Shown here: positions 1,857-14,449 of the stretch, in pieces | Numbering within the stretch: the stretch's first letter is position 1 | Layout: each line of letters opens with the position of its first letter | Source: a virus | Virus record (IMG/VR): IMGVR_UViG_3300049036_000011 | Coordinates: 1-22,105 of that record | Direction: 5' to 3' (one strand) | Length of the DNA stretch: 22,105 nt | Program-made: the position numbers and the translations under genes | The notes under the pieces: model-generated | What the model was told of the DNA's origin: nothing | The model's database searches: none | The model's input: only the letters and a program-made list of their open reading frames with translations

Positions 1857-3971
1857 ATGCCTTTAGAAACAAAGCCGTCAACTCAGCCCCCGAAAGACTT
1901 CACCGGGGGCCTAATCGAGTCGCCGGAGATCAATAAGTCCGGCGAACCGACTCGGCGTTCGATCACCAGCGTCCAAATGGGCGTCGAAGTTGTCAAACAG
2001 GTCATTCAGGCCGGGCGAAACCGCGCAATTGTCAGTTCCCGCATCCTCGCCAAGTATAATTCCGAGAAACCTTACGACTCGAAGAAGCTCGAACAGGACG
2101 GACTGGGCTGGCGGCAGAATTTCAGCACCAAACCCCTCGCCAGTTTGATCGAAAAGGTCTTCCCTCGGCTCACTGAGGCCGTTGGGGGCCTGAAATACTT
2201 CACCGACTCGTCCCTGCCGGACTCCTACGAAAACTCGGTCGAGAAAACGGAAACTTTTCGTGACACGATTACAAAGACGATTCGCAACAAGAAGGGTTGG
2301 ACGACGACCCTCGAAAACATCGCCTTCGACGACTCCCTTTTTGGTTCTACGGTCCTTGCATGGCTGGATGAATACAACTTTATGCCGCAGCACTTCCGCT
2401 GCGATGAAGTTTTCCTCGCCGATGGGACCAAACAGAACGTCAACTTTGCACAAGTCGTGGTTTTACGGGAAAATCTTTTACCGCACGAACTTTTTGCGAT
2501 GATCGAGGACGCCGATGCCGCCAAGGCAGTCGGTTGGAAGCTCGACGCGTGCCGCGAGGCCATCAACAAGGCCGCGCCGAAGCAAATTGCCGAGAGATTG
2601 GGGACGAGTGGTAATATCGAAGCGTGGTATCAGAACGCGCAGCGCGAATTGACCATCGGTGCCTCTTACATGGCCGGAGTAAGCGTCGTGTGCATCTATT
2701 CGCTGCTCGTGCGAGAGGTTACGGGCAAAGTTTCGCACTATCGATTCGTGGGCGATGAATACAAGCTGATTTTCGAGCACGACGACCGGTTTGACAGTAT
2801 GCAGGACTGTCTCGCGTTCTTCTCATACGAGAAGGGCAATGACACCATGCACGGCAGCAAGGGGATTGGTCGCAATCTCTACGAATTGGCCGGGATGATC
2901 GACCGCGCGCGCAATGAAGTTGTGGATCGCGCGATCATGTCGGGAAAAACGCTCGTGCAAGGGGACATCAAGAAAATCAATCAGTTCAAGATGTCCGTGG
3001 TGGGCGCGATGGCTATCGTCCCGACTGGTTGGACCTTTCTCGAACAGAAAATCGACGGTAACGTCGAGCCGTTCTTGAAACTCGACGCTTATTTTTCATC
3101 GCTCGCCGATCAACTCATCGGTTCGGTCAGCACCCCGAAGGTTGAGGGCGAAGCTTTTCGGTCTCCGCAGGCGTGGGCGCTTTTGGCGCAACGTGAGGAA
3201 GAAGGACGCGACGCGAAGATCGCTCGTTTTCTTAATCAGTTCACGTGTTTGATCGCCACGATGCAGCGCCGTATTTGTGACCCGGATACCGCTGATAAAG
3301 ATGCGAAAGCTGCGCAGGAGAAGTTACTGAAGCACATGACTCGCGAAGAACTGGATGTGCTCGCGAAACAGCCGGTTGCAGCTTCGATTGTTGATCTGAC
3401 TCCTATCGAGCGACAACTTGTGGTCGCTATCGCCGCCGAAAAACGCGGCAACCCCCTTTACAATCAACGCCAGCTTGAAGTCGAAGACCTTACCAATCGA
3501 ATTGGTTCTGACTTCGCCAAACGTGTGCTGTTGCCGACAAATGATCCGACTGAGGAAGCGGAGCAGAAGCGGTTGCAGCAGTTGGAAATGACGTTGCTCA
3601 CGCAAGCGCAGCCGGTGCCGGTCAGTCCTCGGGACAATCACATGATCCATTTGGAGATCATGGTGCCGGTCGCCGAAGGCATGGCGCAGCAGCTTATGCA
3701 GGGCGGCGCGGATACGGCAGTTTTGGAAGCGGTCCTCGCGCATATCACAGAGCATTACAATCGCGCCGTCGAGCAGAAAGTGGCCACGAAGGAACAACTC
3801 GCGCCTATTGCGCAACTCGTCAAGAAAGCCGGGCAGGCTATAGCGGAGTTGAAGGCGCTCGATCAGCAGGCCGCGCAGCTTCAGCAAGAGTCTGCGGCGC
3901 TCGATCAAGCCGCGATGATGGAAGAACAGGCGATGGCTGCCGGTATCGATCCTAACATTCCACTCCAGTGA
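1857..3971 (+). CDS. Portal protein
   Basis: A 704-residue protein, probably the dodecameric portal that forms the DNA entry pore at one head vertex and docks the terminase and neck. I base this on size, position after terminase and before a scaffold-like gene, and layout. The N-terminal region (about 60-480) is mixed alpha/beta with portal-like stretches such as LFGSTVLAWLDEYNF and MHGSKGIGRNLYELAGMIDRARNEV. The C-terminal third is helical and rich in Gln, Ala and Glu (for example AELKALDQQAAQLQQESAAL), reminiscent of the long helical barrel of P22-type portals. At about 700 residues it is in the size class of podovirus portals. No Shine-Dalgarno precedes ATG 1857; a repeated 16-bp motif does. 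Confidence 0.85.
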   Translation: MPLETKPSTQPPKDFTGGLIESPEINKSGEPTRRSITSVQMGVEVVKQVIQAGRNRAIVSSRILAKYNSEKPYDSKKLEQDGLGWRQNFSTKPLASLIEKVFPRLTEAVGGLKYFTDSSLPDSYENSVEKTETFRDTITKTIRNKKGWTTTLENIAFDDSLFGSTVLAWLDEYNFMPQHFRCDEVFLADGTKQNVNFAQVVVLRENLLPHELFAMIEDADAAKAVGWKLDACREAINKAAPKQIAERLGTSGNIEAWYQNAQRELTIGASYMAGVSVVCIYSLLVREVTGKVSHYRFVGDEYKLIFEHDDRFDSMQDCLAFFSYEKGNDTMHGSKGIGRNLYELAGMIDRARNEVVDRAIMSGKTLVQGDIKKINQFKMSVVGAMAIVPTGWTFLEQKIDGNVEPFLKLDAYFSSLADQLIGSVSTPKVEGEAFRSPQAWALLAQREEEGRDAKIARFLNQFTCLIATMQRRICDPDTADKDAKAAQEKLLKHMTREELDVLAKQPVAASIVDLTPIERQLVVAIAAEKRGNPLYNQRQLEVEDLTNRIGSDFAKRVLLPTNDPTEEAEQKRLQQLEMTLLTQAQPVPVSPRDNHMIHLEIMVPVAEGMAQQLMQGGADTAVLEAVLAHITEHYNRAVEQKVATKEQLAPIAQLVKKAGQAIAELKALDQQAAQLQQESAALDQAAMMEEQAMAAGIDPNIPLQ

Positions 3972-4307: not shown

Positions 4308-5687
4308 ATGCCAGACGAAAACAAAACGGGCGAAGGTTTTCCCGACCCTAGCAAAAACAATGAGGAAGTGGCTCAAAAACTGAAAGATCAGGATGTCCAC
4401 TCTCAAAACAATGTTGACCTGAAATCTCCTTCTGACGCACTCGACGCTTTGGTCGAAGCTAAGAAGAAAGAAAAGGAAGACGAAGACGCGACTCCGGCAC
4501 CCGATAAAAAAGACGATGCGACACCGCCTGCGAAAACCGAGGCCGAGCTTGCCGCCGAGAAAAAGGCGCAAGACGAGGCTGCGGCCAAGGCTGCGGAAGC
4601 CGAAGTGGCAAAGAAACGCGCCGACGAAATTTTCAAAGACACGCCGACGTTGCCACCGAACGCCAGCCCGAAGTCCACGGAAGCGTTCGCTACGATTAAG
4701 ATCAAGGCGGCGCAAGAGATTACGGCCCGTGATGCAAAGATCGAAGAACTGACGAAACGTAACGCGGAATTGGAGAGCACCGTCAAGCAGAGCAAGCCGC
4801 TCACGCCGGAGACGGAGAAAGAGATCGAGGAACTTCGGAAGTTCCGCGCTCGTCTGGATGTGGAAACTGATCCGCAGTTTAAACAGTTTGACAAGGCGGC
4901 TGACGCCGCGCGTGAATTCATTTACGCGCAGTTGAAAAAGTCCCCGGTCGTCACCGATGACGTGATTGCTGAGATCAAGAAGCACGGCGGGCCTGACAAC
5001 GTTAAGCTCGAAAAGATTTTCGAGGCCGTGAAAGACCCGACGATTCAGCGATTGGTCGAGTCGAAGATTGCCGACATTGAAATGGCCAAGCATAACAAGC
5101 AGCAGGCCATCGCTTCTGCCAAGGAGAACATCAACCAGTATCTTCAGGAGCGGGAGAAGTCCATTGGCGAATCCGCGCAGGCTCACAACAAAGCCACGCA
5201 GGGGGCCTTTGACCGGCTTCTTACGAGTGAGGCGCTTCAGTGGATGAAACCTAAAACCGTTGACGCGAAAGCGGACGAGGCCGCAAAGAAAGCCGCCGAT
5301 GAGCACAATGCGTTTGTCAAGGTGACACAAGAGCAACTCACGAGTGCCTTGAACGACGACTCCCCGGAGATGCGTGCGATCCTTCTGGCCGGTATGGCTC
5401 AGTTGCTTCAAACGCAACGGGTTCACGCCGCTGATAAAGCTCGGCTGGCGTCCATCGAGGCTGACCACAAGAAAGTGGTTGACGGGCATCTCGCCACAAT
5501 CAAAGAGCTTCAGGGCAAGCTCGACAAGATCAAGGGTGCCAGCGTCTCGCGCCTTGAACAGACTGGCGCGGCCCCCGGTGGAAAACCGCCTTCGACGGTC
5601 AAAGAAGGCGAAATCGATACTCGTCCTACGGTGCAAGCTCTCGACGATATCGCTCGCGACATCCGCGAGAAGCGTAACGCGAGTTAA
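4308..5687 (+). CDS. Scaffold-like protein
   Basis: A 459-residue, highly charged protein dominated by Lys, Glu, Ala and Asp, with a low-complexity N-terminal section (about residues 48-105) and long predicted coiled-coil stretches (about 130-165, 240-300 and 370-410). It has almost no Cys, few aromatics and no membrane segment. Composition, coiled coils and place between portal and capsid genes fit an internal scaffolding protein that shapes the procapsid and later leaves. No sequence motif proves this; another coiled-coil head protein is possible. The stop TAA overlaps an upstream ATG (5687) and a strong hairpin follows at 5707-5733. A GTTTAAAC octamer lies at 4877. Confidence 0.75.
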   Translation: MPDENKTGEGFPDPSKNNEEVAQKLKDQDVHSQNNVDLKSPSDALDALVEAKKKEKEDEDATPAPDKKDDATPPAKTEAELAAEKKAQDEAAAKAAEAEVAKKRADEIFKDTPTLPPNASPKSTEAFATIKIKAAQEITARDAKIEELTKRNAELESTVKQSKPLTPETEKEIEELRKFRARLDVETDPQFKQFDKAADAAREFIYAQLKKSPVVTDDVIAEIKKHGGPDNVKLEKIFEAVKDPTIQRLVESKIADIEMAKHNKQQAIASAKENINQYLQEREKSIGESAQAHNKATQGAFDRLLTSEALQWMKPKTVDAKADEAAKKAADEHNAFVKVTQEQLTSALNDDSPEMRAILLAGMAQLLQTQRVHAADKARLASIEADHKKVVDGHLATIKELQGKLDKIKGASVSRLEQTGAAPGGKPPSTVKEGEIDTRPTVQALDDIARDIREKRNAS

Positions 5688-5706
5688 TGCACAGCGATCA
5701 CACAGA

Positions 5707-5733
5707 GGGAGCGCCGGGTGTTCCGGCGCTCCC
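5707..5733 (+). terminator. GC-rich hairpin after the scaffold gene
   Basis: A perfect 11-bp stem, GGGAGCGCCGG paired with CCGGCGCTCCC around a GTGTT loop, starts 20 bp after the scaffold stop. There is no T-run after it, so it may be a leaky terminator, an RNA stability or processing element, or a barrier that lowers expression of the downstream glycan genes relative to the scaffold. Confidence 0.6.
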
Positions 5734-5734
5734 A

Positions 5735-6580
5735 ATGTCCACGGTCCGGGTCTTCGGCAAGAAGATCATGATCGTCATGCCTTGGTCTAAGACCATCAAC
5801 CCAATCACTGCTTTTTCGGTCATGCAGTTAATTGACCGACGACGCACCGCGTCGATGTTGAATTATGGGGATGCCTTTATTGCGCACAGTCGTAATAGCT
5901 GTGCTGACGTTTTTCTTCAATCCGACATGGAATGGATGCTCACCGTGGACGATGACATGTTGCTGCCTTATGGCAATGCGCAGTGGTATCGAGCATATAC
6001 GGGGTGGAATTGGTATCCTGATCCGTTTGCTTCGTTTAACACTCTCGACCGGCTTATGTCTCACGGGAAGACGATTATTGGTGCGCTTTATTTTGGTCGC
6101 CATCGTAACGGTCCTCCTGTATACGCGGAGGGTTCAATCGCCTCAGAATCCGCTTACGCTAGGTCCGGCCCCCACGACGTAATCAAAGCTACGAATTGGG
6201 TGGGCACGGGAGCGATGCTGATTCATCGATCTGTTTACGAGGACATCGAGAAAAAGTTCCCAGTGTTGGCGCGTGGTGCCAACGGAAAAGGGGGAAATTG
6301 GTTCACCAGTTCAGAGCATAACTTACTGGATGGGGTGCGACGAGTCCATCAGATGCTCGGTCAGGATGGACCGATGGATGGGACCAAGGCGCTCAAGGCT
6401 TACGAGATGCTTGAGGGCATCGTGAAGTCTACGGAGAAGAATTCATCCCTTGGTATGGGGGAGGACGTTGTATTTTGTCGTCGGGCGCGCGAGGCCGGTC
6501 ATCAGGTCTTCATTGACATGGGGTTGATTGCGGGGCACGTAGGCCATTGTGTTTACGGGCCAAAAAATACAGGTCAGTGA
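5735..6580 (+). CDS. GT-A fold glycosyltransferase (GT2-like)
   Basis: A 281-residue glycosyltransferase that probably moves a sugar from a nucleotide-sugar donor to a glycan or protein acceptor in the host cytoplasm. After a beta-strand start (KKIMIVMPW) comes EWMLTVDDDMLLP with the metal-binding DDD at residues 72-74, equivalent to the DxD motif. Near the C-terminus is GMGEDVVFCRRAREAGHQVFIDMG, followed by AGHVGH, the GED...FC...G...D...H pattern common in GT-A enzymes of phages and bacteria. I chose ATG 5735 because the alternative ATG 5687 (TAATG with the scaffold stop) would make the 11-bp hairpin coding and give an odd N-terminus; ATG 5768 is also possible. The TGA stop overlaps the next gene's GTG start. 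Confidence 0.8.
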   Translation: MSTVRVFGKKIMIVMPWSKTINPITAFSVMQLIDRRRTASMLNYGDAFIAHSRNSCADVFLQSDMEWMLTVDDDMLLPYGNAQWYRAYTGWNWYPDPFASFNTLDRLMSHGKTIIGALYFGRHRNGPPVYAEGSIASESAYARSGPHDVIKATNWVGTGAMLIHRSVYEDIEKKFPVLARGANGKGGNWFTSSEHNLLDGVRRVHQMLGQDGPMDGTKALKAYEMLEGIVKSTEKNSSLGMGEDVVFCRRAREAGHQVFIDMGLIAGHVGHCVYGPKNTGQ

Positions 6581-7269
6581 TACCGCAACCTCCAGACAGT
6601 TTGCTTGTCGCCGGGCACCTTGAGTTTGGCGACGCACTGGTTTTGAATGGACTCATCCGAGAACTGGCGAAGACGGAGTCGAGGATTGTTTGGCTTACCA
6701 GCACAAGCTACGTGCGCGCCGTTCGAGAGATGATGCTCGATCTGCCGAATGTGGAAGTCATGGCGGCGCTCAGTTACGACGAAGTCAGACACAGGTGGAT
6801 GCCGATTTGGCCGCGCAAGCTGTGCCTCGGTTATTTCAATCCCAACGGGTTTGACGAGTCAAAGTGGGACTCGGAGATGTATCGGCAGGCGGGGATGTCC
6901 TTCGATCTCCGATGGACTAATTTTCGACTGCCTAAAAAACTTTGGGATAAGCCCGGCTACACACGCCGCGAGACCGTCGTCTTTCACGAAGACCCGAGGC
7001 GGGCTTTTTTCGTCAAGCGCAACATGCTGCCACAGAATTTGGAACAAATCCGAATCGATCAACGCCCGTCTATACTTGACTGGCTTCCTGATATCTATGC
7101 GGCCAAGGAGCTTCATTTCATCGACTCAAGTTTTCTGAATCTGGCCGAGTCGCTTTACGCGATGGGATTTTTGCGTGACAAGTCACTGGTATTTCATAAA
7201 TATGCGAAGGCGTATCCCGGCAAGTCGCGGTGGCCGGTGCTTCGCGCTCCATGGATGGTGTTCGAATGA
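6577..7269 (+). CDS. GT9 / heptosyltransferase-like glycosyltransferase
   Basis: A 230-residue protein with GTG start overlapping the previous stop as GTGA; the TTG at 6547 is a less likely start. The N-terminal LLVAGHLEFGDALVLNGLIREL (residues 9-30) resembles the GxGDxLxxTPxLRxL opening of GT-B enzymes such as ADP-heptose:LPS heptosyltransferases. The later IYAAKELHFIDSSFLNLAESL (about 173-193) matches the donor-site pattern in which an Asp-Ser pair is followed by a helix reading LAxxL. At 230 residues it is shorter than typical GT9 enzymes (about 320-350), so it may be a reduced phage version. It probably acts with its three enzyme neighbours. The family call is by motif likeness only. Confidence 0.65.
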   Translation: MIPQPPDSLLVAGHLEFGDALVLNGLIRELAKTESRIVWLTSTSYVRAVREMMLDLPNVEVMAALSYDEVRHRWMPIWPRKLCLGYFNPNGFDESKWDSEMYRQAGMSFDLRWTNFRLPKKLWDKPGYTRRETVVFHEDPRRAFFVKRNMLPQNLEQIRIDQRPSILDWLPDIYAAKELHFIDSSFLNLAESLYAMGFLRDKSLVFHKYAKAYPGKSRWPVLRAPWMVFE

Positions 7270-8249
7270 AATGGCTTCTACTCACAACTGCCCGGCGCAC
7301 CCCCGAGACTTTAAACTCGAACGTGGGTGACGAATTTGCGTGCATAGGCACCGAAAATTTGATTAGGGCAGTAGATCGAAATGCTGAGTTTGATCGTTTA
7401 AACGTTGAGAATCCTAACGAGTGGACTGAACGTCCGTTTGATCGCTGCGTGTTCGCGGGCCGTCCTCTTTGGTGGAGCCAACGACCCGGCACTGATTGCC
7501 TCGATCATTTTTGGTGGGAGCCGATAATGCGTGGGTGGCCGACCAAGAATCGACGCAACTTTCTGGTGTTAGGTGCCGGTAGTGTTTGCGTCGGGGAGAT
7601 TCATGACACGGTCAAGTATATCCGAGCTATCTACGAAGTGTATAAACGCGCGTGGGCGGTGACGACCAGAAATACGGTGTTGGACCATCCGGGTTTTATC
7701 GACAGCGTGTGTCCTTCAGCCTTCGCGGTCCCTCCTAGGGTTTTGCAGAAAAAAGCACAAAAAGTTTGTAACCTGATGGTAGACGGCGGACACTTTCCAT
7801 TAAGCTCTGACGATGCGGGCGCGTGGGTAGATAAGTTCGATTCGATTGTCAGGGAGTTGCTTCGCAGTGAGTATACCTTCGTAGCCCACACGGAGCCTGA
7901 GCGCGATCTGGCCCTCTCCCTCGGATGGAAGCCCGAGGATGTTCGACTCTTTTCGTCGGCAGAAGAATACCTGTCGTTTTACGCTCGAACGACATGCTAC
8001 TTTGGCAACCGGTTGCACGGGGCTGCGGTGTGCGCGGCTTTGGGAATCCCTACGGTCGCGGTCGCGTATGATACGCGGTTGAATTTTGTCCGGCGATTGG
8101 GCGCGCGGGCGCTCCGGCCTTCTCAGATTGATCTCGGGCATCTGAAGTTCTGGCTCCGAGGGGTGCTCTCTCCGACGACGCCACAGGTGGACTTGGCGAC
8201 GGAGTATGAGCGCCTCTGTGAACTGCTCTACCGATTTGCTTACGAATGA
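7266..8249 (+). CDS. Polysaccharide pyruvyl transferase-like protein
   Basis: A 327-residue protein starting at ATG 7266, which overlaps the previous stop by ATGA. Known members of the family transfer pyruvate from phosphoenolpyruvate onto sugars of surface polysaccharides, forming acidic ketals. The evidence is the N-terminal NVGDEFACIGTENLI (residues 19-33), a GAGS segment (103-106), a VDGGHF stretch, and above all the C-terminal YFGNRLHGAAVCAALGIP (245-262), which matches the R-L-H-G-x-x-x-A-x-x-G-x-P signature of the PS_pyruv_trans family. Fold relatives with this signature may catalyse other glycan steps, so the exact reaction is uncertain. It contains one GTTTAAAC octamer at 7396. Its stop overlaps the next ATG. 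Confidence 0.75.
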   Translation: MKWLLLTTARRTPETLNSNVGDEFACIGTENLIRAVDRNAEFDRLNVENPNEWTERPFDRCVFAGRPLWWSQRPGTDCLDHFWWEPIMRGWPTKNRRNFLVLGAGSVCVGEIHDTVKYIRAIYEVYKRAWAVTTRNTVLDHPGFIDSVCPSAFAVPPRVLQKKAQKVCNLMVDGGHFPLSSDDAGAWVDKFDSIVRELLRSEYTFVAHTEPERDLALSLGWKPEDVRLFSSAEEYLSFYARTTCYFGNRLHGAAVCAALGIPTVAVAYDTRLNFVRRLGARALRPSQIDLGHLKFWLRGVLSPTTPQVDLATEYERLCELLYRFAYE

Positions 8250-8959
8250 AAGACGGGTTGATCTGCCTTCAGTATTGGGATGGGGACCGGGATAAAGCCA
8301 TGCGCCTCGCGCGGTTCCTCGCCGATCTCGAACCATCAAAGCGCGAGGACGTGGACTTTGCGTTCTTCGCTCGCGCCGACAGTTCGTTCGACGTGGCTAC
8401 CGTCGCCCACGTGGCACGCAAGTTCAACGTTCACACAGCCAAGCCGAGGATTCGCGCGGCTGGACATCCGTATGCGTGCTGGGTTACATTTTTTTCGGTG
8501 CTGGAGTGGGTGCTGGAGGCCCGGCTCAAGGGACGGTCGAGATATAAGTGGGTTCTTTGTTTCGAGCCAGATTGTGTCCCGCTGACCAAGTCATGGATTG
8601 ACGAACTGAAAGAGGAATGGAACCGTTTAAACAAGTATGTGGTGGGGAGCGAAACTTTTCATTGGCAAATGCACTTGAACGGGAATGCGCTTTACTCGGC
8701 GGATGAAAAATTTCTTACATGGTTTGTTCGCGGCCTTACTCTGAACGGCTGCCCGCAACGTGAACCCTACGACATTTATTTGTTCCCGCAGTTCGCGCGC
8801 TGGGGCGTTGGCTACTCCCGCAAAATTTCGAACCGGTGCGGGCAGAAGACGATGGCCCCCGATGAAGCCAAGTGGCTCCGCGAGAAGATGGGTATCGCAT
8901 TGGTTCACGGGGTCAAGGACGACAGCCTTCATCATTGGGCGACTTCGAATTTGAAATGA
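8246..8959 (+). CDS. GT-A-like glycosyltransferase, last gene of the glycan cassette
   Basis: A 237-residue protein starting with ATG overlapping the previous stop. It has a WVLCFEPDCVPLTKSWIDEL segment (about residues 102-121) in which E107-P-D109 takes the place of a DxD motif, a GSETFHWQMHLNGNALYSADEKFL segment of the acceptor-loop type, and KDDSLHHW near the end. These patterns occur in poorly studied GT-A-like enzymes encoded by phages and surface-glycan loci. Asp at both ExD positions is not present, so the metal site is slightly off the classic form. The stop codon lies inside a perfect 24-bp palindrome (8954-8977) that closes the cassette. The substrate is unknown. A GTTTAAAC octamer lies at 8625. 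Confidence 0.65.
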   Translation: MKDGLICLQYWDGDRDKAMRLARFLADLEPSKREDVDFAFFARADSSFDVATVAHVARKFNVHTAKPRIRAAGHPYACWVTFFSVLEWVLEARLKGRSRYKWVLCFEPDCVPLTKSWIDELKEEWNRLNKYVVGSETFHWQMHLNGNALYSADEKFLTWFVRGLTLNGCPQREPYDIYLFPQFARWGVGYSRKISNRCGQKTMAPDEAKWLREKMGIALVHGVKDDSLHHWATSNLK

Positions 8960-8977
8960 CACCAATTGGTGTCATTT
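8954..8977. terminator. 24-bp perfect palindrome at the cassette end
   Basis: A perfect inverted repeat centred on AATT between 8965 and 8966, with half-site AAATGACACCAA, spans the stop codon of the glycosyltransferase. As RNA it would fold into a 10-bp stem with an AAUU loop, ending in UUU, which fits a short terminator. As DNA it is also a good dimer operator. The two readings cannot be separated from sequence alone. Confidence 0.55.
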
Positions 8978-9166: not shown

Positions 9167-10450
9167 ATGGCAGAATTTTGTGATGATCCCTCAGATATCA
9201 GTGATATCGCTACGAGGGACACCGCGCGCGTCATTGGCTCAATCGCCAAGTCGCTTGCGGCCAACTCCCCTTACTTGAACGTGATCGGCGGCGGGACGTT
9301 CCCGTCCGGCGTCTCCGACACCGTTCGCTCCGTCGTGCAGATGCAGGCTGCTCCCGGTGACTCGCTTGCCCTGCCTACGTTCCTTTGTGACGTGGACATG
9401 TGCGGTCAGACCGGTCATCAAGACCTGACTGACACCATCGAGTTTACGACCAAGCTGGAATCGTTCCGTGGTCGTGGCCCGAACATCTGCGTGAAGAAAG
9501 GCTATTCGGCCTTCAAAGGCAGCTATTCGATGGCTGAAGACAGCTTGAAGAAGCTGATCACCCAGTATGTGAACGCTGACGTTCGCGCTCAGTTGTATCT
9601 GCGCTCGGCGTCGAAGTTCACCGCCAACCACAACTACGACTTCAACTCGTTGTTTACCGGTGGCTCCGAGACTGATCTCGGCGTCAAGTTCGCTCCGCTG
9701 CTCCCGACCGGCCCGATGACCTTCAAGGCGCTCCACTATCTGGCGCGCTACCTGAAGGAGACTCTTTTCGCCGACTGGTATACTAGCGCGGGCTCCATGC
9801 CTCACTTCCGCTTCATCGGTGGTAGCGATCAGATCGAATACTACCGCTCCGAAGTCGGTGTGCAGAACGTCATGACTGCTCTCACGCAGGGCGGTTACAA
9901 ACTCGGCGAAACGGCGCTCACGGCCTATGGCTTCGAGCAGTCCCCGGCGTATCGCGGCATCGCTTTCGGTGTCGATCAGCGCCCGCTGCGTTTCAACGCG
10001 TTCGACGGTGCCGGGCTCCCGGTCCTGTTGAACCCTGTGACGATTGTTACCAACGCGTCCAAAGGCACTGCCTACGCGAAGGCCAATCCGACGTGGCTCG
10101 ACGCCAACTACGAAATCGGCACGTTCATTGCCGAAGGCTCGTTCGAACGTCAGGTTCCCGAGAAGTATGTCGGCGAAGGCAGCTTCAAGTTCGCCCCGCA
10201 GTTGCACATGGGTGAACTGGAATGGCATTACCTGAAGGACAACCACTGTAACCAGTGGGGTGACTTCGGCTGGCACAAATACCAGATCACGCGCGCTTAC
10301 AAGCCGCTCCGTCCGCAGCACATCATCCACATCGCCTACAAGCGTTGTAAGACCGACCTCGGTCTGGTGGAGTGCCCGACTGAGCCGGTGCAGTCCAGCT
10401 ACACTGGTGCTGACAGCTACACCACCGTTGGTGTGACCTGCGAAGAATAA
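9167..10450 (+). CDS. Probable major capsid protein
   Basis: A 427-residue protein proposed as the main shell subunit. The reasons are position (scaffold, cassette, then this gene), length typical for HK97-fold capsid proteins, its own structured leader, and a terminator-like hairpin set after it, as expected for the most expressed virion gene. Codon use looks biased toward C-ending codons compared with its neighbours, another sign of high expression. The N-terminal 60 residues are polar and may be a flexible arm. It has eight Cys residues (including 5, 74, 79 and 108, with the rest in the C-terminal region), many for a capsid protein. No motif identifies the fold directly, so the call rests on context. 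Confidence 0.75.
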   Translation: MAEFCDDPSDISDIATRDTARVIGSIAKSLAANSPYLNVIGGGTFPSGVSDTVRSVVQMQAAPGDSLALPTFLCDVDMCGQTGHQDLTDTIEFTTKLESFRGRGPNICVKKGYSAFKGSYSMAEDSLKKLITQYVNADVRAQLYLRSASKFTANHNYDFNSLFTGGSETDLGVKFAPLLPTGPMTFKALHYLARYLKETLFADWYTSAGSMPHFRFIGGSDQIEYYRSEVGVQNVMTALTQGGYKLGETALTAYGFEQSPAYRGIAFGVDQRPLRFNAFDGAGLPVLLNPVTIVTNASKGTAYAKANPTWLDANYEIGTFIAEGSFERQVPEKYVGEGSFKFAPQLHMGELEWHYLKDNHCNQWGDFGWHKYQITRAYKPLRPQHIIHIAYKRCKTDLGLVECPTEPVQSSYTGADSYTTVGVTCEE

Positions 10451-11159: not shown

Positions 11160-11893
11160 AGCGTTATCTCCTACTCTTACTCGCCGCGACGTTGATCGCG
11201 GGCTGCTCCACGTTCATCCCGAAGCGGGTGGAATTGGGACAGGACAAGGTCCAGAAGTTTCCGCAGCCGACAGAGAAGCGAAAGGAAGCTGAGCGGCAGG
11301 CGGTGTTGTTGGCCGCGCAAAAAGCTCGTGAAGCGGAACGCATCGCGGCACTGGAGGGCAGCGCGGCGGAAAAGCCCGCTGGGGAAGCGGCGTCGCTGGC
11401 CGAGTCGGTCAGCCTGAGTCTCGGTCCTCCAAAAAACCCATGGAGTGGTGAAGTTGAAGTGCTGCGGCTGCAAGTTGCGCGTCTGACGGCGGAACATAAT
11501 TTGATGCTCGCCAAGTTCGCTAAGGAGAACGACAAGAACGAAGGTAAGAAGATCGAGGGCACTGGTTGGCTTTCGGTGCCGTATTTTGTTTGGACTGGTG
11601 GGGCTTTGCTGTTGATTTTTTTCGGGTTCATCGTGCTGAAGGTGGCGTTGAGCTTTGTCTCTATGGCGAACCCCGGGGTGGCGGTTGGGATGAGGGTCGC
11701 CAAAGTTGGCGGGCGGGCCGTGTCACGAGCTTTCTCTGAAGTGCTCGAAGGCGGGGAAGCGTTTAAACGTCGAGTGCAGGAAAAGCTGCCGGACGTGTCC
11801 GAGCAGGTTCTCGAATTGTTTCGGGAAATGCAGGAACGTCGCCAGTCAACCGAGACTCAAAAAATGATTAAGGAGTTGACGGAAAAGGTATGA
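11156..11893 (+). CDS. Lipoprotein with internal membrane span (unimolecular spanin-like)
   Basis: A 245-residue protein with GTG start overlapping the holin-like stop as GTGA. The N-terminus is a lipoprotein signal peptide with lipobox LIAGC and lipidated Cys17. Residues about 40-130 are helical and charged, probably coiled coil. A strong membrane span lies at about 144-170 (VWTGGALLLIFFGFIVLKV). An 75-residue helical, charged tail follows. Lipid anchor, periplasmic coiled coil and C-terminal transmembrane segment are the layout of unimolecular spanins, which fuse outer and inner membranes at lysis. The long tail past the span, predicted cytoplasmic, is unusual for them, so an anchored virion or entry protein cannot be excluded. 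A GTTTAAAC octamer lies at 11761. Confidence 0.65.
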   Translation: MKRYLLLLLAATLIAGCSTFIPKRVELGQDKVQKFPQPTEKRKEAERQAVLLAAQKAREAERIAALEGSAAEKPAGEAASLAESVSLSLGPPKNPWSGEVEVLRLQVARLTAEHNLMLAKFAKENDKNEGKKIEGTGWLSVPYFVWTGGALLLIFFGFIVLKVALSFVSMANPGVAVGMRVAKVGGRAVSRAFSEVLEGGEAFKRRVQEKLPDVSEQVLELFREMQERRQSTETQKMIKELTEKV

Positions 11894-12930
11894 GTTGCGG
11901 ATGCAATACAGATACGGCGACGTGCGGCAATCCCTGCGCCACGTCGGAAACGAACACGGCGGCGTGCGAATCGCTCCCAAGTCAGATCGAGAATTTTACG
12001 GCGCAGTTCTTTGGAGTTGTCGTCAAGTCTGAAGTGGATGGCGAGGTTGTGTGGACGCTGCCGTGCAATCTGGAAACCGGACTGGAGAATAACCCTCGCG
12101 CTGAGGACGAAGGGCTGGCGTGCTATTTTCTTCGGCTTTTTCGGGATGGTATCCTCGGTTTGACGGGTCCGCAAGGTGAGACCGGAGCGGACGGCACAAA
12201 TGGTCGTAACGCATACACGGTTACGCTTCAGTCGTTCACCCAGCCGACGCTGGGCTCGCCGACTGTTACTGTTCAGACGCAATACAATCCGGCGATTTTG
12301 GAGAACAGCTATATCTTCATCGCTACCTCGGGTTGGTATCACGTGGACGCGACTGATACTTCGGGAACGTTGTTCCTGACACTGGTCAAGGAAGTAACGG
12401 GCGCGAGTGGCACAATTACGGCGGGCAAGCTCGTGGTGCCGTCCGGGTTCCCCGGCGTCAGCGTTACGGGACCGACAGGCCCTCAAGGTCCACAGGGGCC
12501 GCAAGGTCCGGCTGGGGCTTCCCTAACGGAAGACAATGCATTTTTCTTTGCGACTGTGGGTGTGGATTTCAATCTCCCGCTTCTTTATGCGGCAGTTGAT
12601 TATACCAATTCGACCCCGCAAATTCTTCTCCCCACGGCAGGCATCTATAAAGTGACTGCGGTTGTGGGGCTTATTGGCTTGGCGAGCGTCGCTATAACCG
12701 ACACTGTTTCCCTGAAACTTCGGAACACGTCCAATGCGTCGGACGTGAGTGGTTCTGAGGTTGAAGTAAACGATTTCGCTGAAGACAGCGTGAAACAATT
12801 GGTGATCGATGTGTTTGTGACGACTGACGGGGCCAACCAAACGATTGCGCTGTTCGGCAAGTGCGCGACGGCAGATCGGGTTGCGGCCCGGGCTCTCAAA
12901 ACCACGATTACCGCGATTAGGATTGAATGA
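11890..12930 (+). CDS. Collagen-like fibre protein
   Basis: A 346-residue protein starting at an ATG that overlaps the previous stop, with GGAAAAGG upstream as a possible ribosome site. The N-terminus is Cys-rich (CGC at residues 3-5, C12, C16, C26). Two short Gly-X-Y collagen-like stretches occur: GLTGPQGETGADGTNGRN at about 90-107, and [18 protein letters not shown] at about 195-212. After each comes a beta-rich domain; the last (about 220-346), with LPTAGIYKVTAVVGLIGLASV, resembles C1q/TNF-like jelly rolls found at fibre tips. Such proteins trimerise through the collagen repeats. It is probably a tail or head fibre that touches the host or particles around it. Confidence 0.8.
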   Translation: MSCGCNTDTATCGNPCATSETNTAACESLPSQIENFTAQFFGVVVKSEVDGEVVWTLPCNLETGLENNPRAEDEGLACYFLRLFRDGILGLTGPQGETGADGTNGRNAYTVTLQSFTQPTLGSPTVTVQTQYNPAILENSYIFIATSGWYHVDATDTSGTLFLTLVKEVTGASGTITAGKLVVPSGFPGVSVTGPTGPQGPQGPQGPAGASLTEDNAFFFATVGVDFNLPLLYAAVDYTNSTPQILLPTAGIYKVTAVVGLIGLASVAITDTVSLKLRNTSNASDVSGSEVEVNDFAEDSVKQLVIDVFVTTDGANQTIALFGKCATADRVAARALKTTITAIRIE

Positions 12931-13283
12931 GTCGGGGCGGTTTTTCTCCCGTAACCACGGCAGCGTCCGGCGAAAGCCATGCGTCGATTACGCAGTCTCG
13001 TAACGGCGGGGTAAACACCCCCGCCATTACAGCAGCGTCCGGCGAGAGCCGTTCATCGGTCAAGCAGCATCGTAATGGGGGTATAACGGTTCCTGTCGTG
13101 GCTGCGGAAGCGGTTTGTGACCGCCCCGATGGCGGGGACAAGACGGCCTTGGCTCCGGGGTATGCTCTCGAAGTTGCCAATCCGCCTTCCCCGGGATTAG
13201 ACGCTTCCTGTTTGTGGCAGGACGACAACGGAATCATCGTTCAGGAAAACGATGGTGACACAATTTGTATCGATAACGCGTGA
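12927..13283 (+). CDS. Small repeat protein of unknown function
   Basis: A 118-residue protein translated from an ATG overlapping the previous stop, with AGGA 4 nt upstream. Residues 11-58 are two copies of a 24-residue unit beginning TAASGES and continuing with an RNGG motif. The DNA of the two copies (12957-13028 and 13029-13100) is still similar, so the duplication is moderately recent. The C-terminal half ([24 protein letters not shown]) looks beta-rich with two Cys. It sits between two collagen-like fibre genes and is joined to both by stop/start overlaps, so it probably belongs to the same fibre. I do not recognise it. Confidence 0.65.
12957..13100 (+). repeat. Two 72-bp tandem repeats
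   Basis: Two in-frame 72-bp units, each starting near GCAGCGTCCGGCGA, encode the 24-residue repeat of the small fibre-cluster protein. Confidence 0.7.
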
Positions 13284-14449
13284 GAACGAGTAGTATTCCA
13301 GTTTTTTTGGACCCCGGTTTGCCGACTGGGTATGGTGTCGCGACCGTCGAAATTTCGCCGGGCGTTTTTCGTCTTCGACTTGTCCCGTTGGAAAATTTGA
13401 AGGGGGACACGGGGGATGCGGGGCCGACTGGCGCGACCGGCGCGACTGGACCGCAGGGTCCGGCTGGTGCAACTGGTCCGGCTGGTGCGACCGGCGCGAC
13501 TGGTGCGACTGGTGCAACTGGTGCGACCGGTCCGCAAGGTGCAACTGGCCCGGCTGGTGCGACCGGTGCGACCGGTGCAACGGGAGCAACTGGTGCGGCG
13601 GGATCAGTATGGCGTGAAGGAACGGGGGCTCCGTCAAACGGCCTTGGGGTGGATGGGGATTTTTATCTCGAAGACGTAACAGGCGATGTCTATCAAAAAG
13701 CCGCAGGCACGTATTCCGTAGTTGCTAACATTAAAGGCCCGGCTGGGTCGAATGGAACAGCAACGGTGTGGCGAGAAGGAACTGGTGTGCCTTCTAATGG
13801 GCTCGGGATAAATGGTGATTTTTATCTTGACGATGCGACCGGAGATGTCTACCAGAAAGCGTCGGGGACTTATTCTGTCGTTGCCAACATAAAAGGTCCG
13901 ACTGGAGCGACCGGCGCAGCCGGTGCTGATGGCGCTGATGGCGCGGACGGCGCGGATGGAGTAAACGGTGCTGACGGGTCAGTATGGCGCGAAGGAACTG
14001 GTGTGCCTTCGAATGGACTCGGGGTCAATGGGGATTTTTATCTCGAAGATGTGACCGGGGATGTCTACCAGAAAGCAGCCGGAGTGTATTCGGTTGTGGC
14101 GAACATCAAAGGTCCAACTGGTGCTACGGGTCCAGAGGGTTCGTATTCGCACTCAGTTCTGACGTATAGCGCAACGACCAACATCGATTTTGACGGGGAC
14201 GACTATCGGTCTTTAACGCTTGCGGGCAACGTCACTTTTACTACTTCGAACAGGGGTGCCCCCAAATCGATTACTATACGTATTATCGGCGATGGATCGT
14301 TGCGCACTTTGACGTTCCCGGCTGGATGGACTTTTTTGGGCGACGGTGCCCCGGTTTCACTCGCCGCTAATAAGGATGCGGTTCTGTCGGTAACGTGTTT
14401 CGGTTCGGCGGATTCGGACATTGTCGCGGCATACGCAGTCGAGCCATGA
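13280..14449 (+). CDS. Collagen-like tail fibre with three repeated modules
   Basis: A 389-residue fibre protein with GTG start overlapping the previous stop as GTGA. After a 40-residue N-terminal region come 22 Gly-X-Y triplets (residues 42-107, mostly GAT). Three near-identical 45-residue modules follow (110-154, 163-207, 235-279; start VWREGTG, end NIKGP), with a second collagen run rich in GAD (208-234) between the last two and three more triplets after the third. The C-terminal 110 residues ([21 protein letters not shown] and [20 protein letters not shown]) are a beta-structured tip domain seen in many phage fibres. It probably forms a trimeric receptor-side fibre. The tip is followed at once by the next fibre gene, again with ATGA overlap. 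Confidence 0.85.
13403..13600 (+). repeat. Collagen-coding 9-bp tandem repeat tract
   Basis: The tract encodes 22 Gly-X-Y triplets, chiefly variations of GGTGCGACT. The near-perfect 9-bp periodicity makes it prone to slippage, so the fibre length may vary between isolates or be misassembled. Confidence 0.85.
13607..14116 (+). repeat. Three copies of a 135-bp module
   Basis: Copies at 13607-13741, 13766-13900 and 13982-14116 encode the 45-residue module starting VWREGTG. Copies differ at scattered, mostly silent positions, which suggests duplication followed by purifying selection or gene conversion. Confidence 0.85.

Follow-up and report, generated by a model that had tools for sequence, protein, structure and literature searches.

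A candidate virion-glycosylation island in the head operon of uncultured soil phages

Why should a phage keep enzymes of apparent sugar metabolism among the genes that build its head? The question is raised by the viral record IMGVR_UViG_3300049036_000011, of which positions 1 to 22,105, that is, all of the 22,105 bases analyzed here, are referred to as the window. In it, a cassette of four genes sits between a scaffold-like gene and the gene for the likely capsid protein. The most likely role of this cassette and of its counterparts in related phages (together called the island) is glycosylation of the virion, which the original prediction had already put forward as the leading role and which we consider probable; the capsid is the favored, though unproven, acceptor.

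The genes of the window, those given with coordinates here all lying on the plus strand, are arranged in the order TerL (C-terminal part, cut by the window edge; 1–984), two CxxC proteins, a portal-like protein of 704 amino acids (1857–3971), an open reading frame (ORF) of 103 amino acids, a charged, scaffold-like protein of 459 amino acids (4308–5687), the cassette, a capsid protein of 427 amino acids (9167–10450), and fiber and tail genes. Within the cassette, genes 1 to 4 (5687–6580, 6577–7269, 7266–8249, and 8246–8959) are joined by three 4-nucleotide overlaps, GTGA at 6577–6580 and ATGA at both 7266–7269 and 8246–8249; coordinates and junctions bear out the predicted arrangement of four overlapping genes between scaffold and capsid. 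The ATG of gene 1 at 5687 shares one base with the stop codon of the scaffold gene (TAATG). This start is preferred because homologues from two related loci (L057 and L007) begin at the same place, opening with M-S/N-T-D. Gene 1 thus probably encodes 297 amino acids, and the alternative start at 5735 is probably an internal ATG. None of the four products contains a candidate membrane helix as judged by hydropathy (maximum 19-residue hydropathy ≤1.60).

Relatives of the capsid numbered 101 when a single query was used and 165 contigs when a profile was used. They represent a lineage of uncultured soil phages of roughly 70–75 kb, which comes from metagenomes only; capsid, portal, and gene 1 had no tblastn match among the 50,697 phage records of INPHARED. 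In 84,980 species genomes, one capsid relative was found (L169; JABFSS010000103.1), on a contig of a metagenome-assembled genome (MAG) labeled Ca. Peribacteraceae. The contig may be a misbinned phage sequence or may hint at the host; as binning of phage contigs is unreliable, no host is claimed.

Gene 1 was present in all of the 65 distinct scaffold-to-capsid intervals and a relative of gene 4 in 63 of them, genes 2 and 3 in four and two, respectively. When the survey was started from gene 1, the capsid gene lay downstream in 64 of 64 and the scaffold gene upstream in 75 of 75 testable loci, and gene 1 was single copy in all 25 long contigs. The shortest islands consist of gene 1 alone, or of genes 1 and 4. 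In longer islands, these are joined by GDP-mannose 4,6-dehydratase (GMD; 1e-156), GDP-L-fucose synthase (1e-128), and sulfotransferases, and also by other probable glycosyltransferases, a PseB/CapD-like short-chain dehydrogenase/reductase (SDR), and HNH/endonuclease VII genes. Of the 25 long contigs, 14 encode GMD together with another SDR of the GDP-fucose type, sometimes outside the island; in 57 kb of G025, the window's own phage, there was no match to GMD or Fcl. In one island (L045), an ORF of 694 amino acids appears, judged from its sequence, to be a GMD gene that contains an in-frame, intein-like insertion.

Mean pairwise identity amounted to 52% for gene 1, 50% for TerL, 56% for the portal, 38% for the scaffold, and 76% for the capsid; in its conservation, gene 1 equals TerL. 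The ratio of nonsynonymous to synonymous substitution rates (dN/dS) came to about 0.09 in both gene 1 and gene 4, and to about 0.15 in GMD/Fcl; gene 1 is under strong purifying selection. In partial Mantel analyses with the portal held constant, distances of gene 1 tracked those of the scaffold (0.39) and the capsid (0.22), but not those of the collagen-like fiber (−0.01), and distances of gene 4 tracked none of the three. This is the pattern expected from a fixed priming enzyme combined with exchangeable tailoring enzymes, of which linkage alone could produce a part. Within the head operon, gene 1 is universal, is inherited vertically, and is coupled in translation to the scaffold gene; exchange is confined to the genes that follow it. 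The cassette had been described as inserted and as a discrete unit, which is wrong in detail, and the survey of related phages that had been suggested did recover gene 1 in every interval, but not as an insertion in one phage. Since gene 1 is universal and single copy, reading the cassette as an insertion (or moron) was rejected.

What gene 1 encodes was addressed by structure prediction. Its AlphaFold2 model (predicted local distance difference test score, pLDDT, 88.6) matched, among structures in the PDB, A197 of Sulfolobus turreted icosahedral virus (STIV; Z score 17.7), the glycosyltransferase part of LH3 (17.3), and Mnn9 (15.9); Mimivirus R699 and ColGalT1 were also among the best matches (Z scores 15–18), and generic GT2 enzymes scored lower (12–13). 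Of 998 compared chains, 987 reached a Z score of at least 5, the top ones being GT-A enzymes aligned over residues 5–273. A match to the glycosyltransferase family PHROG 34859 (3e-6) was obtained as well; profile searches of the PDB with genes 1 to 4 yielded no relevant relative. The protein carries the motifs DDDM, GEDVxFCxRA, and GHxG, and in 37 aligned sequences, D72, D73, and D74 (the DxD metal motif), G242, E243, and D244 (the catalytic acid region), and H268 (the C-terminal histidine) are invariant; D-x-D is retained in more distant members. By its predicted fold, gene 1, a soluble protein, is a glycosyltransferase of the GT-A type, as had been proposed, and from this we infer that it transfers a sugar. 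One subclade of its homologues (L081, 8081–9097; L143, 8067–9086) carries an N-terminal extension of ∼55 residues that resembles a helix-turn-helix domain.

For gene 4, no match to a family, PHROG, or the PDB was found, and an hhalign comparison with gene 1 was not significant. It contains, however, the motifs ExDxxP, HxNGN, GWD/PYD, and HGxK, the residues of which are invariant, so that the predicted GT-A-like glycosyltransferase is probable at the level of motifs. Gene 3 scored 40.5 bits against the Pfam family PS_pyruv_trans (PF04230; cut-off 25.3), over only the last 43 profile positions (C-terminal 43 residues), and its homologue in L057 scored 32.9 bits; against the NCBIfam CsaB equivalog, it remained below the threshold (22.5 versus 213.1). 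By its C-terminal motif, it is a member of the polysaccharide pyruvyl transferase family, in agreement with the original prediction. Gene 2 had been called GT9-like, for which no support was obtained: neither it nor its homologues matched any family in Pfam, PHROG, or NCBIfam, or any PDB entry, although absence from profiles does not exclude a fold. Its conserved motifs, GDxLxxNGLIRxLA and ELHFIDSSFLNLAES, may be GT-B-like. Elsewhere in the window's own phage (L174, 19393–19869, upstream of TerL), a short ORF resembles the glycosyltransferase family labeled c7, apparently without an acidic D-x-D-like motif, and is possibly a degenerate transferase.

From these components, a pathway can be proposed. 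Gene 1 would most likely attach the first sugar, taken from a host nucleotide-sugar, to a phage structural protein produced alongside it, with the capsid as the favored acceptor; gene 4 and the exchangeable genes would then lengthen and cap the sugar chain. For the phage of the window, this would mean capping by gene 3 with a pyruvate ketal; relatives would use either L-fucose, made available via GMD and GDP-fucose synthase of the phage, or else sulfate. The outcome would be a virion bearing a lineage-specific sugar coat. Modification of a virion protein is favored over that of DNA or of the host surface because of the fixed position within the head operon, the coupling to the scaffold gene, the soluble nature of the enzymes, the sugar-nucleotide genes of the relatives, and the lack of the pyrimidine hydroxymethylase family; the capsid is favored as the acceptor because of position and precedent.

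The candidate acceptors lie downstream. The product of 9167–10450 had no sequence match to known capsids in Pfam, PHROG, or the PDB, and the model built from 57 relatives was poor (pLDDT 48.5). Of the 50 best structural matches of this low-confidence model, 46–47 were nevertheless HK97-fold shell proteins, nearly all of them phage capsids (top Z score 8.5), which, together with gene order, makes it likely, but not proven, that this is the major capsid protein. Its C-terminal tail contains 32% serine plus threonine, compared with 12% in the body. Such enrichment was absent from the capsids of N4, phiEco32, and T7, and also from mycobacteriophage capsids reported or presumed to be glycosylated; as a diagnostic glycosylation site, the tail was rejected for the latter reason and is a candidate site only. 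The alternative acceptors are two collagen-like fiber proteins, one at 11890–12930 (PHROG tail matches and a G-X-Y tract), the other at 13280–14449 (PHROG tail-fiber matches and a long GXT tract, with tracts of 23 and 10 triplets). A G-X-Y tract was present in every locus extending at least about 2.8 kb past the capsid gene, and position Y is mostly threonine (687), with lysine being minor (116).

If the fiber, rather than the capsid, were the acceptor, gene 1 and its partners would glycosylate the G-X-Y tracts, at threonine or a different residue, and thereby stabilize the fiber or tune adsorption. The presence of LH3, ColGalT1, and Mimivirus R699 among the best structural matches of gene 1, the ubiquity of the tracts, and the dominance of threonine at Y would all fit; so would a GMD gene located outside the island, near a collagen-like gene, in two genomes, but in three others, the GMD gene outside the island has no collagen-like gene nearby. 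Furthermore, gene 1 does not track the fiber once the portal is controlled for, the animal and Mimivirus enzymes use hydroxylysine, yet lysine is minor at Y, and STIV A197, an equally good match, has no link to collagen. This alternative is rated as unlikely, but it is a serious one and the strongest of those considered. Somewhat less probable again is that the enzymes alter glycans of the host surface late in infection, which could bring about superinfection exclusion or prevent virions from adhering to debris after their release. In bacteria, the usual role of pyruvyl transferases and GDP-fucose pathways is in surface polysaccharides, and small serine-recombinase-like genes in some genomes (L174, 18069–18926; L177, 4569–5327; L180, 11923–12615) leave temperance open. 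However, the island occupies its place in the head module strictly in all loci, whereas phage genes for surface modification are normally accessory and gene 1 is universal. No membrane-embedded glycosyltransferase, flippase, or polyprenol glycosyltransferase was seen among the island genes (no dedicated search for GtrA/GtrB was made), and the single match in the species genomes, being on a MAG contig, gives no sign of lysogeny.

Hypermodification of the phage DNA, as in T4, is very improbable. Pyrimidine hydroxymethylases belong to the thymidylate-synthase family, and none of 24 long contigs encoded a member of it (PF00303), the controls being positive in 9 of 14 genomes. A search for Tet_JBP likewise gave no hit; as the control of this search gave no signal either, no conclusion is drawn from it. 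Phage glycosyltransferases do often glycosylate DNA (PMC12619734), and the helix-turn-helix-like extension of some gene 1 homologues could be read in this sense; sulfotransferases and a pyruvyl transferase, on the other hand, do not fit such a role.

Several points weigh against glycosylation of the virion, and of its capsid in particular. Virions of the lineage are yet to be isolated, hence no mass shift is known. The covariation of gene 1 with scaffold and capsid may reflect linkage alone, and genes 2 and 4 have no family match. Collagen glycosyltransferases are among the best structural neighbors of gene 1, the collagen-like fibers are as universal as the capsid, and for STIV, too, the acceptor is unproven. 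Position is not absolute, since these phages have further glycan genes outside the head module. Going further than virion glycosylation as such, one may tentatively picture a viral counterpart of the O-antigen system: an invariant priming glycosyltransferase in the head operon, combined with tailoring genes (for GDP-L-fucose synthesis, pyruvyl, sulfo, and other transferases) that are swapped between strains, would give rise to a strain-specific, sometimes acidic coat on the capsid (possibly on its serine/threonine-rich tail, residues 408–420) or on the collagen-like fiber. We regard this as a possibility that is more doubtful than not.

The cassette of the window is flanked by two inverted repeats, which had been predicted as an 11-bp hairpin before the cassette and a 24-bp palindrome after it. 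Both exist: the hairpin (11-bp arms, 5-nucleotide loop) at 5707–5733 on the plus strand, and the perfect palindrome at 8954–8977, where it spans the stop codon of gene 4 and has no strand. They are the only perfect inverted repeats of the window (arms ≥10 bp, loop ≤8), and since 0.13 would be expected on average (15 Markov-1 simulations), the two exceed a chance level. The first one does not precede the cassette but, if translation starts at 5687, falls within gene 1, at its 5′ end. Neither has a T-run, and neither sequence was found in the relatives L007 or L057; therefore, the repeats do not mark a mobile unit. Hence, with their sequence not conserved and one of them within gene 1, the hairpins were rejected as unit boundaries, real as they are. 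The scaffold–gene 1 junction (5687–5770 in the window) folds more strongly than shuffled sequences in many relatives, and the enrichment holds for the family (z averaging −1.35, compared with −0.1 to −0.3 in controls), with z below −1.5 in 26 of 65 cases, versus 6–12 in controls, related sequences not being independent. Such folding would fit an element of expression control, not the end of a mobile unit. The structured junctions diverge in sequence; that of L011, for example, forms a perfect stem of 13 bp.

As for the remaining head genes, the full-length homologues of TerL contain Walker-type motifs and gave weak PHROG matches to TerL. Capsid and portal could not be identified by sequence, matching nothing in Pfam, PHROG, the PDB, N4, phiEco32, or T7, and the scaffold-like protein had no match in Pfam or PHROG. 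The order portal, ORF of ∼100 amino acids, scaffold, capsid is common to the window, N4, and phiEco32, and no sequence similarity of the head proteins to those of N4 and phiEco32 was found; the scaffold and portal labels rest on gene order, along with size for the portal and composition for the scaffold. Between TerL and portal (1535–1831), the window encodes a small CxxC protein (DUF6171, 8e-9; PHROG 13558, 1e-14), a relative of which is present in most loci. In the virion module of one relative (L175, 731–8005), an ORF of 2,424 amino acids possibly encodes an ejected internal protein.

Among tailed phages, the demonstrated cases of virion glycosylation come mainly from a handful of mycobacteriophages. 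The present analysis predicts it to be obligate in a common soil lineage, with 165 capsid-bearing contigs and no match among the sequenced phage records. The pattern of a fixed core and a variable tail makes it possible to test what phages gain from sugar coats in the absence of animal antibodies, be it in adsorption, in evading receptor decoys, or in being shielded from enzymes or soil particles, and the island provides a set of soluble glycosyltransferases with new motifs, together with matched acceptor candidates.

The closest solved structure to gene 1 comes from outside the tailed phages: that of STIV A197, like it a single-domain viral GT-A protein. A197 is a glycosyltransferase reported to be essential for the virus, and the capsid protein of STIV is glycosylated (PMC10551542). 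STIV (A197/B345) differs in that identity to gene 1 is 15%, in being an archaeal, non-tailed virus without a multigene sugar island, and in that its acceptor is inferred as well. The Paramecium bursaria chlorella virus PBCV-1 encodes GMD (A118R) and GMER (A295L), and the glycan of its capsid protein Vp54 bears fucose (PMC9614988). Its combination of a viral GDP-L-fucose pathway with glycosyltransferases resembles that of the phage relatives encoding GMD and Fcl; unlike the phages, it is a eukaryotic algal virus, no shared sequence has been shown, and the window phage lacks a GMD/Fcl match. LH3, ColGalT1, and Mimivirus R699 share the GT-A fold with gene 1 (Z scores 15–17), and these phages do carry collagen-like proteins, but gene 1 has no fused lysyl hydroxylase, and threonine mostly takes the place of lysine at Y.

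A close parallel in organization is found in mycobacteriophages, the capsid and tail-tube proteins of which are reported to be glycosylated (PMC12363180, PMC11256854). They, too, encode soluble glycosyltransferases (Che8 gp108–110, Corndog gp38, and Firecracker gp35–36), of which Corndog gp38 and Che8 gp110 are reported to be essential for capsid glycosylation (PMC12363180). In the Corndogvirus Firecracker, gp35–36 even belong to the head module, where they show 4-nucleotide overlaps and are enclosed by portal on one side and protease/capsid on the other; profiles of genes 1 and 4, however, did not align significantly with gp35 or gp36 (hhalign). Che8 carries its glycosyltransferase genes outside the head module, at the far right end. 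The lineage studied here is a different one, with a complement of pyruvyl transferase, GMD/Fcl, and sulfotransferase. The original suggestion of an undescribed system is thus partly wrong: a location of glycosyltransferases in the head module is not new, given the Corndogviruses, and the principle is known from Che8 and Corndog. What is new is the universality of the gene in an uncultured lineage, the glycosyltransferase families involved, and the pattern of a fixed core and a variable tail with fucose, pyruvyl, and sulfo functions.

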